Positions 21,803 to 51,797 of a DNA stretch of 52,294 nucleotides are shown in pieces. The DNA comes from Myxococcales bacterium (GTDB lineage Bacteria; Myxococcota; Myxococcia; Myxococcales; JAJYLH01). Positions within the stretch are counted from its first letter, which is position 1. Each line of letters begins with the position of its first letter. Under the pieces are notes generated by a model. The model worked only from the letters and a program-made list of their open reading frames with translations. It ran no database searches and was not told the DNA's origin. Made by a program: the position numbers and the translations under genes. The DNA lies in contig JAJYLH010000043.1 in NCBI GenBank assembly GCA_021787845.1, forward strand, positions 1-52,294, written 5' to 3'.

Positions 21803-24433
21803 ATGCCGAGCTTGAGCGCTAGCGCCCGGCGCCCTTGGCGCACCGCCGCCGAGGCCCTCCTCTGGGTCGCGGTGTTCGGCTGCCCCCTCGCGCGCGGCGG
21901 CGTCGACCCAGCGGTGTTCTTCGCGCTCGCCGTCGTCGCGGCGCTCGCGCTGGCCTTCGAGTCCCGCGCCTGCCGCCGGGAAGGGCTGCCCGTTCCCTCC
22001 GCCGCCCTCGGCCTCGCCGGCGGCGCGCTCCTGGCCCTGCTCTCAGCGCTACCGCTGCCGGCCTTCGTCACCGGTCTCCTCTCCCATCGGGCGGTGGCGC
22101 TCGCGAGCTTGCCCCCGGAGCCCGCGCGCTCGTTCGTCGCCTGGTCGCTCGACCCGCCCGCCTCGCTGGTCGACGCCGTCCGCCTCGCCGCCCTGGCGGC
22201 CGTCCTCGTCACCGCGGCGGCCCTCGCGCGCCAGGAACGCAACGCCCGCCGGCTGGCGGCAGCGGTGGCGCTCGCCGGTCTCGCGGTGACCCTGGCGTCG
22301 GTCGCGCGCTTCCTCGCCCACGCCAGCACCTTCTTCGGCCTCTTCTCCATCGGCCACCAGGAGATCCTCCCGACCACCTTCATCAACCAGAACCACTCCG
22401 CGAGCTTCTTCATCCTCGCCACCGTCGCCTCGATCGGGCTCTTCCGGGTCGCCCACACCCACCTGGAGCGCTTCGGCTGGGGAGCAGCGGCGACGGCGAA
22501 TGGCGCCCTGGCGCTGACCAGCCTCTCCCGCGGCGGCATCGCGGCGCTGGTCATCGCCTGCGCGCTCATCGTCTGGCTCGCCGACCGGCGCGCCCGGCTC
22601 TCGCGCGGCTCCCGCTCGCCCTTCGGCGTGGTGATGATCGTCGGCCTCGTCTTTTCGGCAGCGCTCCTGGTCGGCGTCGAACGCTTCCTCGCGCCCTGGC
22701 GGAAATCCCCGGAGGCCGCCGTCGACAAGATGGCGGTCTGGCCCGCCACCCTCCGCCTCATCCGCGACCACTGGCTGACCGGCGTCGGGCGAGGCGCCTA
22801 TTCCCCCGCGTTCTCCGCCTACGTCCCCCCGGGAATCCACGCCACTTTCACCCATCCCGAGAACCTCTTGCTCCAGTGGATGGCGGAATGGGGCGTCCCA
22901 GTGGCGCTCGCGGGCTTGTTCCTCCTCGGCTGGACGTTGTGGCGGGCCTACCGGCGGCCGGCCAGCCAGGACCACCCTCTGGTCCCCCTTTGCGACGCGC
23001 TCTTCGCCGGCCTCGTCGCGGTGCTCTTGCACGACCTCGCGGATTTCGGGCTCGAGTTCGCCGGGGTCGGCGTGCCGTTCGCGGTCCTCCTCGGCGTTCT
23101 CGCCGGCCAGAGCGCGGGGCCCACCCGGCTCCACGAACGGGGCGCACTCGCCTTCGCCGGAGCGGTCGCGCTCGTCTTTCTCCCGCTCGGCATCAGCGCT
23201 TCCCATCGGCTGGTGGACGGGCAGCTCGCTCGGGTGGCCCGGGAGACGAAGGGGGCGGGACCGCAACGGCTCGACGCGGCCTACCGGCGGGTGCGCGCGA
23301 CCCATCCGGCCGACCCGTTCGTCGACGTCACCGCCGCCGACCGCCTCCTCGACCTCGGGCTCGACCCGCGCCTTCCCCTGGGCGAGCGCAGCGACGCGGT
23401 GCGCCGGGCGCTGCCGTTTCTGGCGCGGGCGCAGAGCCTGTGGATGAGCGACGAGCCGCACCTCTTGACCGCCCGGGCGCTCTGGCTCATCGGCCGGCGG
23501 CCGCAGGCGTTCACCGAGCTGCGCCAGGCGCTGCGCATCGGCGGGAACACGGGGGCGGTGGTGAACGAGGCGCTGCGCATCGGGGCGACGCCGCGGGACC
23601 TGGCGAGCTTACCGGAAGCGCTGTCGTCTTCCTGGCCGGGAGCGCCGGTGGCGCCGCTCTTCACGCCGGCGACCGGGGCGGCCGCGGTCGTCTTCGATCT
23701 CTGGGCCGGTCACCACCTCTGGCGGCTCTCGCGGCAGACGGCAGCGGTCCTGGTCGCCGACCAGACCGCGCCGTGGGCGACCGATCGGAAGTTCCTCGTC
23801 GGCGCGTGCACCGCGGGGGCGATCGACGGCAACTCGGTGGGACAGCCGCAAGCCTCGACCAAGGACGAGCTGCCGGCCATCTCGAAGCTTTTGGGTTCGA
23901 TCGCGGACCGGCTCACGGCGGTGGCCCCCTCGGACTCCGCCCGCTACGTGTGCGCGGCCGACGCCGCTCGGTTCGAGGGCGACCAGGCGCGCGCGGACCG
24001 ATGGCTCCAGGCGGGCGTGGCGGCGATTCCGTCGGACGTGTCGTTGCGTCTGATGTGGGCGCGGCGGCTTCTCGCGTCGAACCAGCCGGAGCAGGCGGTC
24101 AGCGCCTTGCGCGGAATCACCGACCCGGCGGCCGGCAACCTGGTGCGCCAGGTGCGGGAGCTGCGCGTCGCGGCGTTGCACGCGGCCGGGCGGGTGCGCC
24201 GAGCGGAAGCGGAAGCGCAGGACGTGGTCGACGCGCACTACGACCAGTCGTGGGCGCACCAACTCTTCGCCAGCACGCTCGCCCAGGATGGCCTCTACGT
24301 TCGGGCGGCGCGCGAAGCGCAGGTCGCCGCCCGTCTCACGACCGGCGCGCAACGGGTGCAGCTCGAAGGCTGGCGCCAGGCGCTGCTCCTCAAGGCCCGG
24401 CAGGAGCTTCCCCCGACCCAGCCGGTGCCGTGA
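21803..24433 (+). CDS. O-antigen ligase/polymerase family membrane protein with TPR tail
   Basis: 876 residues. The first 450 or so hold about 12 membrane helices. The long periplasmic loop contains GVGRGAYSPAF and FTHPENLLLQWMAEWG (about 349-364), the histidine-bearing motif of the Wzy_C/WaaL family. After about 460 the protein is soluble and alpha-helical, with repeated A-x-x-x-L-x-x-G/A patterns consistent with TPR repeats, on the periplasmic side if the helix count is even. It would polymerise repeat units or ligate the glycan to a lipid or protein. The ATG at 21803 lies just after the degenerate aminotransferase copy. Confidence 0.88.
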   Translation: MPSLSASARRPWRTAAEALLWVAVFGCPLARGGVDPAVFFALAVVAALALAFESRACRREGLPVPSAALGLAGGALLALLSALPLPAFVTGLLSHRAVALASLPPEPARSFVAWSLDPPASLVDAVRLAALAAVLVTAAALARQERNARRLAAAVALAGLAVTLASVARFLAHASTFFGLFSIGHQEILPTTFINQNHSASFFILATVASIGLFRVAHTHLERFGWGAAATANGALALTSLSRGGIAALVIACALIVWLADRRARLSRGSRSPFGVVMIVGLVFSAALLVGVERFLAPWRKSPEAAVDKMAVWPATLRLIRDHWLTGVGRGAYSPAFSAYVPPGIHATFTHPENLLLQWMAEWGVPVALAGLFLLGWTLWRAYRRPASQDHPLVPLCDALFAGLVAVLLHDLADFGLEFAGVGVPFAVLLGVLAGQSAGPTRLHERGALAFAGAVALVFLPLGISASHRLVDGQLARVARETKGAGPQRLDAAYRRVRATHPADPFVDVTAADRLLDLGLDPRLPLGERSDAVRRALPFLARAQSLWMSDEPHLLTARALWLIGRRPQAFTELRQALRIGGNTGAVVNEALRIGATPRDLASLPEALSSSWPGAPVAPLFTPATGAAAVVFDLWAGHHLWRLSRQTAAVLVADQTAPWATDRKFLVGACTAGAIDGNSVGQPQASTKDELPAISKLLGSIADRLTAVAPSDSARYVCAADAARFEGDQARADRWLQAGVAAIPSDVSLRLMWARRLLASNQPEQAVSALRGITDPAAGNLVRQVRELRVAALHAAGRVRRAEAEAQDVVDAHYDQSWAHQLFASTLAQDGLYVRAAREAQVAARLTTGAQRVQLEGWRQALLLKARQELPPTQPVP

Positions 24434-24783
24434 GGCGCCAGTCCGGCGTTTCGGTGCGCTGGGGAGCGCGTTCGGTCGCGGCCGCGAACCCTTGAAGCGG
24501 TGGTCGCCGCACGCCGATCCGACCGATCCGACCGATCGGACCGATCGGACCGAGCCGGCCGGGCCGGCCGATCGCGTGGGGCGCCTCGGCGGCCAAGGGT
24601 CTGTGGGGCTACAGCGCTCGCGGTGGGCGGCGCCGCAGCCGCCCCCCCTTGGGTTCCCCCGCCCGGCGAGCGCCCGGTCGAGCGGGCGGCGGCGGCCTTG
24701 CCCCGTCGCGCCTTGCCCGCGGGTGCACCGCTCGGACAGAATCGCAAGAGCGTCTTCTTGGCGGCCGGCTCCGGGGAGCTTTC
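24434..24783. other. Intergenic region with 9-bp tandem repeat
   Basis: 350 bp between the WaaL-like gene and the radical-SAM gene. It contains a short tandem array (24514-24553), GC-rich palindromes and the RBS of the next gene (GGGGAG, 24773-24778). The plus-strand frame of the radical-SAM gene is open from 24649, but its translation there is low-complexity. Confidence 0.5.
24514..24553. repeat. 9-bp tandem repeat, family D copy 1
   Basis: About four units of a 9-mer, CCGATCCGA changing to CCGATCGGA. The same 9-bp unit, or its complement GGATCGGTC, recurs at 42162-42180 and 44041-44089. Confidence 0.8.
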
Positions 24784-26769
24784 GTGCGACGAATCGAGGT
24801 CACGCATCGGTGCCCGACTCCCTGCGCCGCTTGCACCGCGTGCTATCCGGAGGAGGACGACACGCTTCTCGCCGACGTGCTCGAGGCGAGCGCCGGCGAC
24901 GAGGAGATCGCCCTCGGCGGCGGCGACGCGACCCGCTGGCGGCACCTGGCAGCGCTCCTGGTGGGCAACAGCGGTCATGCCAAGCCGCGGCGGTACTGGA
25001 TCGAGGCACCGGCGTCGGCCTTCGACCCGGCGACCCTCGCCACGATTCGCGAGCGGGCGGGGCACGGCGTCGTGGTGCAGTTCGACCTCACCGGCGAGCC
25101 GGGCGAGACCGCCCTCGGGGAAGCGGCGGTGGCGGAGGCGGAGCGGCTCGGGCTCAAGGTGCAGGCCCGAATCTGCGCTCGGCCGCGCGGGTTCGCCGGG
25201 CTGGGCCCGCTCTTCGAGCATCTCGCGCCGCGCGAGACCCGGCTCGAGCTGACTCCCCGGGACACCAACGGCTTGGTCTCGGCGCTGCCGGTCGCCGAGC
25301 TGGACGAGCTCCTCGCCGGCGCCGCCCACGTCGAGTTCACCGGCCATCGCCTTCCCACTTCCGGCTTCCCGCCGCCCTGCGTGATGCCGAAGACCTGGCG
25401 GCAGCGCCCGCAGGCCTGGAACGGCGCGTTCGAGCGATGGGAGGAGCCGAATGAGAGCTTCCCCGCCTGCGAGCCGTGCGCCCTCCGCAACCGCTGCCAC
25501 TTCGAGCGGCCCGCGTGGCTCGACACCACCGTTAGGCGCTGCGTGGCACCGGTCCTGGCTCCCGACAGCGCACCCGAGCCCACCGGCGACGACCGGGGCC
25601 CGGCGCGGCCGAAGAAGCGCGAGAAGACCGCCGCGGAGTCGGTGGTGTGCACGATGCCGTGGACGACGATGGAGCTGCCCTCGCCCGACGGCCAGATCTA
25701 CCAGTGCTGCGCCAACTGGACGCGCTCGCCGCGGGGGAACCTCGCCCAGCAGTCGCTCCTCGAGACCTGGAACGGCGAGGGTTACCGGTTCGCGCGCCGG
25801 GTGATGAGCGGCGAGGACGTCTCGCCCCTGTGCCATTCCCTCTGCCCCAGGCTCTACGACCGCCAGTTCGGCGAGGAGAGGTTCGCGTTCACCGAGGGCG
25901 CCGAGCCGTTCATGCAGAACCAGCGCCTGCTGCTGGAGGACATCGAACGCCGGGAGGAGGTCGCCCGCGGCAAGCCGCTATACCTCGTGCTCTCGCCGAG
26001 CTCCTACTGCAACTACGACTGCATCATGTGCTCGTTCGGGCGCAGCCCGCGCAGGGACCTGCCCGACTCGGTCTGGGACGACGTCGACGCGCTCTTGCCG
26101 ACCTTGGCGGCGCTGACCTTCCTCGGCGGCGAGCCGCTCGCGAGCGACCAGGTGATGCGCTTCCTGCGCGGGTTCGACCGCACGAAGTATCCCGATTGCG
26201 GCATCTCGCTGACGACCAACGGCAGCCTCTTGACGGAAAAAGCGCTCAAGCACATGGAGCGGGTCCACTTCGCCGCGGTGACGCTCAGCTTGAACGCGGG
26301 AACGGCGGAGACCTACCAGAAGGTGCACCGCGGCATTCCCTTCGAGCAGGTGCTCCAGAACCTCGACGCCCTCCTCGAGTTCCGGCGCCGCCAGCCCCAG
26401 CCGTTCAACCTCCAGCTCAGCTTCGTCGTGCAGCCGCAGAACATCGACACGATTCTCGACTTCGCCGCCATCGCGCACGCCCGCGCCCTTCCCATTCGGC
26501 TCCTGCCCCTCGACGTCTCCCAGCTCCCGAGCGCTCTCCACGGCGCGCACGACTACTCCCGCGACCCGAGGGCCGTCGCCCACGTGCTCGAGCAGATGGA
26601 CAAGCTGCGCACCTGGGCTGCTGAGCGGGAGCCCTCTTGGTTGCCAGGCATCCTCGCGACCGCCGAATCGATTCGGCAGAAGGCCACCCTCCGCGAGGCC
26701 GCCGTCGCCAAGCCCAGCGAGCCGCGGCCGATTCTCTCGCGCCTGCGCGGGTTCCTATGGCGGAGCTAG
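24784..26769 (+). CDS. Tandem radical-SAM/SPASM-like protein
   Basis: 661 residues starting at a GTG with GGGGAG 5 nt upstream. The N-terminus carries CxxxCxxC at Cys10-Cys14-Cys17. It is followed by a small SPASM-like cysteine cluster Cys229-x2-Cys232-x5-Cys238. A second SPASM-like segment runs from Cys289 (CTMPWTTMEL) through Cys308-Cys309 and GNLAQQSLLETWN to Cys350-x3-Cys354. A second radical-SAM domain follows with Cys409-x3-Cys413-x2-Cys416 (SSYCNYDCIMC), FLGGEPL and TTNGSLL. The C-terminal half is a convincing radical-SAM enzyme; the N-terminal one is more divergent. The order rSAM-SPASM-SPASM-rSAM in one chain is uncommon. Its place after the polysaccharide locus suggests glycan or peptide modification, but the substrate is unknown. 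Confidence 0.85.
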   Translation: MRRIEVTHRCPTPCAACTACYPEEDDTLLADVLEASAGDEEIALGGGDATRWRHLAALLVGNSGHAKPRRYWIEAPASAFDPATLATIRERAGHGVVVQFDLTGEPGETALGEAAVAEAERLGLKVQARICARPRGFAGLGPLFEHLAPRETRLELTPRDTNGLVSALPVAELDELLAGAAHVEFTGHRLPTSGFPPPCVMPKTWRQRPQAWNGAFERWEEPNESFPACEPCALRNRCHFERPAWLDTTVRRCVAPVLAPDSAPEPTGDDRGPARPKKREKTAAESVVCTMPWTTMELPSPDGQIYQCCANWTRSPRGNLAQQSLLETWNGEGYRFARRVMSGEDVSPLCHSLCPRLYDRQFGEERFAFTEGAEPFMQNQRLLLEDIERREEVARGKPLYLVLSPSSYCNYDCIMCSFGRSPRRDLPDSVWDDVDALLPTLAALTFLGGEPLASDQVMRFLRGFDRTKYPDCGISLTTNGSLLTEKALKHMERVHFAAVTLSLNAGTAETYQKVHRGIPFEQVLQNLDALLEFRRRQPQPFNLQLSFVVQPQNIDTILDFAAIAHARALPIRLLPLDVSQLPSALHGAHDYSRDPRAVAHVLEQMDKLRTWAAEREPSWLPGILATAESIRQKATLREAAVAKPSEPRPILSRLRGFLWRS

Positions 26770-44040: not shown

Positions 44041-44089
44041 GACCGATCGGACTGATCGGTCGGATCGGTCGGATCGGTCGGATCGGTCT
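44041..44089. repeat. 9-bp tandem repeat, family D copy 3, next to the RND start
   Basis: About four units of GGATCGGTC, with a GACCGATCGGACTG lead, end 4 bp before the RND ATG at 44094. Read as protein this would give an implausible (IGR)n N-terminus, so it is leader DNA, not coding. Confidence 0.85.
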
Positions 44090-51477: not shown

Positions 51478-51797
51478 GTTCGTCCCTCCCTCCGGGGGGG
51501 ACGTGGGTTGAAACTTCGGTGCAGACCCGCGAGCCGAGCCGCCTGAGTTCGTCCCTCCCTCCGGGGGGGACGTGGGTTGAAACGGCTGCCGGACGACGGC
51601 AGCCTGGACGCGCACGATGTTCGTCCCTCCCTCCGGGGGGGACGTGGGTTGAAACAAAAACACTGTCGTCGGCAAAGCCATCAGCGGACGTTCGTCCCTC
51701 CCTCCGGGGGGGACGTGGGTTGAAACCTCGCGCGACGATAGGCGAGAGCCCTACCGGTCGGTTCGTCCCTCCCTCCGGGGGGGACGTGGGAAGAGAC
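51478..51797 (+). CRISPR. Orphan CRISPR array, five 37-bp repeats and four spacers
   Basis: Repeats at 51478-51514, 51547-51583, 51619-51655, 51690-51726 and 51761-51797. The repeat starts GTTCGTCCCTCCCTCC, has a GTCCC/GGGAC hairpin, and ends GTGGGTTGAAAC. Four copies are identical; the fifth ends AAGAGAC, marking it as the leader-distal terminal repeat and so plus-strand transcription. Spacers are 32, 35, 34 and 34 bp and unrelated. The TTGAAAC end is typical of type I and III repeats. No cas gene lies in the window. At 51434-51444 CGTCTTGAAAC, followed by 33 bp to the first repeat, may be the 3' end of a decayed sixth repeat. Confidence 0.95.

Follow-up and report, generated by a model that had tools for sequence, protein, structure and literature searches.

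The window, as we call the whole stretch of 52,294 nucleotides from a Myxococcales bacterium analysed here, carries at positions 24784-26769 of the + strand a gene for a double-barrel radical SAM protein of 661 aa, named B below. The frame is open throughout, from a GTG start codon at 24784 to a stop codon at 26767-26769, which is included in the coordinates, and sequence comparison places the start of all full-length homologues at the position of this GTG. The initial annotation had read the product as one chain with a CX3CX2C motif at residues 10-17 and another at 409-416, separated by two cysteine clusters of SPASM type. Both motifs are indeed there, and the first is extended by a fourth cysteine to CX3CX2CX2C (C10, C14, C17 and C20; 24811-24843). 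It lies within an N-terminal barrel of derived radical SAM type (residues 1-186; 24784-25341), delineated with AlphaFold2, Foldseek and hhalign, in which GGDA (residues 46-49; 24919-24930) replaces the AdoMet-binding GGEP. In hhalign comparisons this segment aligns with the GGEP of two related proteins, A and C, and the surrounding LGGGDAT is invariant. The second motif, CNYDCIMC (C409, C413 and C416; 26008-26031), is the canonical CX3CX2C of a C-terminal radical SAM barrel (residues 399-577; 25978-26514) that is recognized by Pfam and modelled by AlphaFold2. Its AdoMet-binding GGEP (residues 448-451; 26125-26136) is, like CNYDCIMC, invariant among the homologues. All these features, and the auxiliary motifs that follow, are on the + strand.

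Between the barrels are two auxiliary motifs. The first belongs to the N-half, C199-x29-C229-x2-C232-x5-C238 (25378-25497); it is invariant and aligns with a counterpart in A and C. The second, made up of C289, C308/C309, C350 and C354 (25648-25845), is also invariant and coincides with a Pfam SPASM match (residues 289-351; 26.4 bits, cut-off 21.5). A twitch domain holds one auxiliary cluster and a SPASM domain two (PMC10470005). As the C199-C238 segment has cysteines for one cluster only, ‘twitch-like’ describes it more exactly than the ‘SPASM’ of the initial annotation. The C-half is, by its motifs, a canonical twitch-radical SAM unit, with the twitch preceding a barrel that has CX3CX2C and GGEP. 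C10/14/17/20, C199/229/232/238, C289/308/309/350/354 and C409/413/416 recur at equivalent positions in all six full-length members, so the pattern is not due to chance; C131, C253 and C472 are not conserved. These comparisons confirm B as a single chain with two predicted radical SAM barrels and four putative Fe-S cysteine ligand sets.

Family models see one half of this protein only. Pfam Radical_SAM (PF04055) matches residues 404-535 with 64 bits (cut-off 29.5), and this match, CNYDCIMC, GGEP and the AlphaFold2 barrel place the C-half in the radical SAM superfamily. Residues 1-285 have no match in Pfam or NCBIfam, so no curated family model recognizes the N-half, which is assigned to the superfamily through its (beta/alpha)6 barrel fold and its homology. 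The HMM search against subfamilies that the initial annotation had proposed gave Radical_SAM and SPASM for the C-half and no NCBIfam match for the N-half searched alone. Auxiliary Fe-S ligands of twitch/SPASM type are represented by the SPASM match together with the invariant C199-C238 set. Membership of NF033640 was dropped, the score over residues 287-567 being 99.7 bits against a cut-off of 170. B does not qualify as HxsB, HxsC or HxsC4 of the His-Xaa-Ser (Hxs) peptide-modification systems (TIGR03977, 36 of 267.9 bits; TIGR03978 and NF038332 absent among the 25 families listed), nor as the FO synthase FbiC, there being no CofG, CofH or FbiC model among those 25 families and the core of the N-half being derived. 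A prokaryotic viperin (pVip) or other defence gene was rejected, as NF038283 gave 37.6 bits against a cut-off of 180 and the PADLOC pVip model covered the generic core only, with 45 bits. Searches for a phage or plasmid origin gave no match.

The profile of the N-half matches the N-halves of the canonical double radical SAM proteins A (98.2%) and C (97.5%) in hhalign, and a second profile comparison gave 98.5% with E 2e-15; the alignment to A and C spans CX3CX2C, the GGEP position and the terminal C-x30-CX2CX5C. AlphaFold2 run on five N-half sequences alone, an input alignment without any canonical radical SAM sequence, gives six alternating strand-helix units, with strands at residues 2-5, 41-45, 70-76, 95-102, 125-132 and 152-156, helices between them, and pLDDT mostly 80-94 over residues 31-210. 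The leading Foldseek matches of the model are AprD4, which is the best, Mmp10, lysine 2,3-aminomutase, biotin synthase and SkfB, with other TIM barrels interspersed and only three matches passing 1e-3. The full-length model of B has a low pTM of 0.51. Because the N-half folds as a radical SAM barrel in these predictions and every homologue retains its cysteines, the two-barrel architecture of the initial annotation holds at the two points on which it could have failed.

The N-half keeps CX3CX2C and GGD, and is altered at the P of GGEP and in the TNG segment: GGEP has become GGDA, TNG has become EAPA, the beta-4 motif is VQ[IF][ED], and the third cysteine has no preceding aromatic residue. Most of these substituted core residues are themselves invariant, and on these sequence grounds the N-half is derived rather than decayed. 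Between genomes G096 and G107 the N-half has a dN/dS of 0.32 and the C-half one of 0.22, which indicates that both halves are constrained by purifying selection.

Full-length relatives of B occur in G096 and G107 and at loci L033, L034 and L035, and a further homologue, at L038, is cut by a contig end. Identity to B of the window is 35-42% in the N-half and 47-49% in the C-half; the architecture is found in six genomes with N-half identities of 35-83%, and every named cysteine is kept. A more distant paralogue in the window genome (G000), L002 (C142:18748-20952; 26% identity), has the order radical SAM, four-Cys, twitch, radical SAM and shares C10/C14/C17/C20, which are thus invariant in it as in the six full-length homologues, and C229/C232/C238; it lies near a flippase-like gene. 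Two other loci, L036 and L037, have the B C-half fused to a different protein, E, and the B N-half is absent from them. Two paralogous double proteins of the window genome, one on contig C40 (L148:6788-9877) and one on contig C19 (L149:6881-8833), have N-halves in the course of degeneration. The former keeps CX3CX2C and has GGTA in place of GGEP; the latter has lost the N-half cysteines and keeps CX2CX5C. These paralogues show a graded, stepwise loss of N-half motifs. The C40 protein also carries a fused Gfo/Idh/MocA oxidoreductase domain, and another such gene lies upstream.

The neighbourhoods of the homologues, whose analysis the initial annotation had also proposed, proved rewarding: the clusters contain several double-barrel radical SAM proteins and E, and four of the loci lie 8-12 kb from Hxs genes. 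The proteins A (L047:6861-8744) and C (L047:13347-15188) have two Radical_SAM matches each and two canonical halves. E is a degenerate radical SAM-like protein whose cysteines have the spacing CX24CX2C, a stretched form of CX3CX2C, and it is fused to a DUF483-like YPxCC part; its motif is GCP[FYW]-x24-[KR]GC[ST]FC, with [KR]GC[STA]FC as a wider form of the second segment, and C167, C192 and C195 are invariant. It is nearly invisible to Pfam and NCBIfam, and its members include L047:10722-13355 (+), L034:9995-12874 (-), the N-terminal parts of L036 and L037, and a gene on contig C113 of the window genome (L067:15276-17102). In all seven testable loci outside the window genome, E adjoins B (G096, G107, L033, L034 and L035) or is fused to its C-half (L036 and L037), a near-obligate pairing. 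The genes are tightly packed in G096, where there is a four-base overlap between the stop of A and the start of B, and E begins 16 bases beyond B. In G107 there are about ten radical SAM genes in 25 kb alongside HxsA4, HxsB, HxsC4 and HxsD, whose NCBIfam scores are 102 of 55 bits, 537 of 370, 576 of 500 and 57 of 50, respectively. This cluster (L058 and L059; G107:C58:496001-528000) also includes a radical SAM-methyltransferase fusion and a tryptophan-halogenase-like gene.

The proximity to Hxs genes extends beyond G107. A B homologue lies ~8-12 kb from HxsD in four genomes, G096, G107, G197 (the contig of L035) and G199 (the contig of L037); for L034, L036 and the window genome the two are on different contigs, and the contigs of L033 and L038 do not reach far enough to show the distance. 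HxsA4 is above its cut-off in each of the nine genomes that have a B homologue, and all nine have HxsD, which is above its cut-off in eight and at 49.1 of 50 bits in G196. Among 195 genomes assigned to the Myxococcota, HxsD is present in 31, HxsC4 (E<=1e-60) in six, E in seven and the B N-half in three, and all three N-half carriers fall inside both the HxsC4 set and the E set. The hypergeometric probability is about 1.6e-5 by genome and 1.5e-3 by genus for HxsC4, and 2.9e-5 for E; these values are optimistic because two of the three carriers share a genus, the statistic resting within the phylum on three genomes of two genera only. As every relative found sits in an Hxs-carrying genome, B is likely a new part of the His-Xaa-Ser peptide-modification system. 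HxsC4-positive genomes without B exist (G053, G106 and G145), so B is accessory at most. Co-occurrence and nearness to HxsA or HxsD are those of an Hxs accessory component, with the qualification that in the window genome the genes are not near B.

The same parts are present in the window genome. Contig C108 encodes a complete double protein C (676 bits), the A/C-like doubles are on C40 and C19, E is on C113, HxsC4 on C128, and HxsD on C104 with two HxsA4 peptides. These peptides, of 235 aa (L104:15353-16096) and 162 aa (L104:16199-16744), have 58 and 35 HGS/HAS triplets, respectively, and each ends in HGSW. B itself is at least 24.8 kb (the contig end) from any Hxs gene or partner, and its actual neighbours are polysaccharide genes: by Pfam, genes of CDP-sugar type, one RmlA-like gene, FdtA, a pair of DegT aminotransferases and, last in the locus, an O-antigen-ligase-type (Wzy_C) gene (21803-24433, + strand) 350 bp upstream of B. 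The rare-deoxysugar locus of the initial annotation is therefore real, but its functional link to B is weak, since the homologues track Hxs. Because the Hxs, E and double-protein parts are present in this genome but scattered, the polysaccharide genes are probably not partners of B. Two similar 9-bp tandem repeats lie at 24514-24573 (CCGATCCGA), between the ligase gene and B, and at 44045-44088 (GATCGGTCG). Near the contig end, at 51478-51790, is an array of 71-bp units with a CRISPR-like look, the repeat of which starts with GTTC and ends with GTTGAAAC.

On balance we favour a role for B in maturation, as an accessory enzyme of the HxsA4/HxsC4-type His-Xaa-Ser systems, in which its C-half would be catalytic and its N-half an iron-sulfur partner module. 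The C-half would cleave AdoMet reductively, and its substrate, which is entirely conjectural, would be a peptide or some intermediate in the Hxs pathway. The N-half would run no second independent reaction; it would hold two Fe-S clusters beside the C-half, passing electrons and/or positioning substrate and partner E. This partner role is preferred because the E-fused proteins L036 and L037 do without an N-half and because the C40 and C19 proteins suggest graded loss of its motifs. For PapB, return of an electron between molecules, involving auxiliary clusters, is supported as part of the radical SAM cycle (PMC10470005), and this intermolecular transfer makes an in-chain electron relay in B plausible. 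In the literature searched, HxsB and HxsC are putative maturases only, no experimental function for the Hxs system or for B was found, and a search for tandem or double radical SAM proteins found no papers; none of the NCBIfam models encountered in this analysis describes an Hxs component with two barrels.

The initial annotation had offered either two coupled radical steps or a degenerate N-terminal partner, and of these the evidence leans somewhat towards the partner, as a derived half. It is nevertheless conceivable, if doubtful, that AdoMet is cleaved in both halves and that a single substrate undergoes two coupled radical steps, in the manner of FO synthase (FbiC), which has two radical SAM domains generating two separate 5'-deoxyadenosyl radicals (PMC11917521). 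The retained and invariant CX3CX2C and GG[D] of the N-half and the two fully canonical halves of the neighbours A and C would suit such an enzyme; the altered GGEP, TNG and beta-4 segments, the missing aromatic residue before the third cysteine, the lack of an N-half in L036 and L037 and the C19 paralogue without N-half cysteines argue against it. That B is instead a sugar enzyme of the adjoining locus, modifying a nucleotide sugar or glycan in the way of BtrN, AprD4, DesII or BlsE, we consider unlikely. B does follow Wzy_C in the same orientation, downstream of genes for CDP-sugars and amino sugars, its best PDB sequence match is BlsE (3.6e-7), the N-half resembles AprD4 in fold, and NAD-epimerase, PIG-L and glycosyltransferase-like genes were noted by eye near L034 and L037. 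Most B homologues, however, are without sugar genes, those of G096, G107, L033 and L035 having multiple radical SAM genes nearby instead, which disfavours this reading; the family models score far under cut-off (33 bits against 400 for BlsE, 21 against 450 for DesII), and the occurrence of B follows Hxs. Least credible by far is an accidental joining of the halves through a chance frame, a sequencing error or a decaying pseudogene. The failure of the libraries to detect the N-half might have hinted at such an accident, but a fusion artefact or pseudogene is ruled out by the homologues in six genomes, with the same architecture and all cysteines kept, and by the dN/dS of the N-half.

Beyond the accessory role favoured for B, a broader and more tentative suggestion is that deltaproteobacterial HxsA4-type systems have gained several double-barrel radical SAM proteins and the CX24CX2C/DUF483 partner, at least 10 radical SAM cores per locus, which may act serially on the His-Gly-Ser polymer (up to about 58 triplets) to give a heavily modified peptide, one barrel of some doubles perhaps relaying electrons or substrate to the other from within the same chain. 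Whatever the reaction, the extra radical SAM components, with co-occurrence and fusion evidence, are concrete candidate genes for Hxs systems, and a concrete Hxs precursor peptide, with HGS repeats ending in HGSW, is now available to follow. The double-barrel layout is also a natural test case for a second radical SAM barrel as an internal electron relay.

B shares features with several known systems and coincides with none of them. NF033640 (N_Twi_rSAM) has the same order of twitch before barrel as the C-half but is without the second, N-terminal barrel. FbiC, a CofG-CofH fusion, likewise has two radical SAM cores per chain (PMC11917521). It belongs to a different family from B, and both of its halves are catalytic. 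To our knowledge, it has no auxiliary-cluster domains. BlsE, BtrN, AprD4 and DesII combine a radical SAM barrel with an auxiliary cluster, as B does, but have one barrel with the auxiliary domain after it. A and C also have two barrels per chain, and N-halves homologous to that of B, including the C-x30-CX2CX5C end; unlike B, they have GGEP in both halves, and the auxiliary motif of their second half follows the barrel rather than preceding it. The Hxs system accompanies B homologues in all nine genomes, in four of them at a distance of 8-12 kb, although B itself is neither HxsB nor HxsC.
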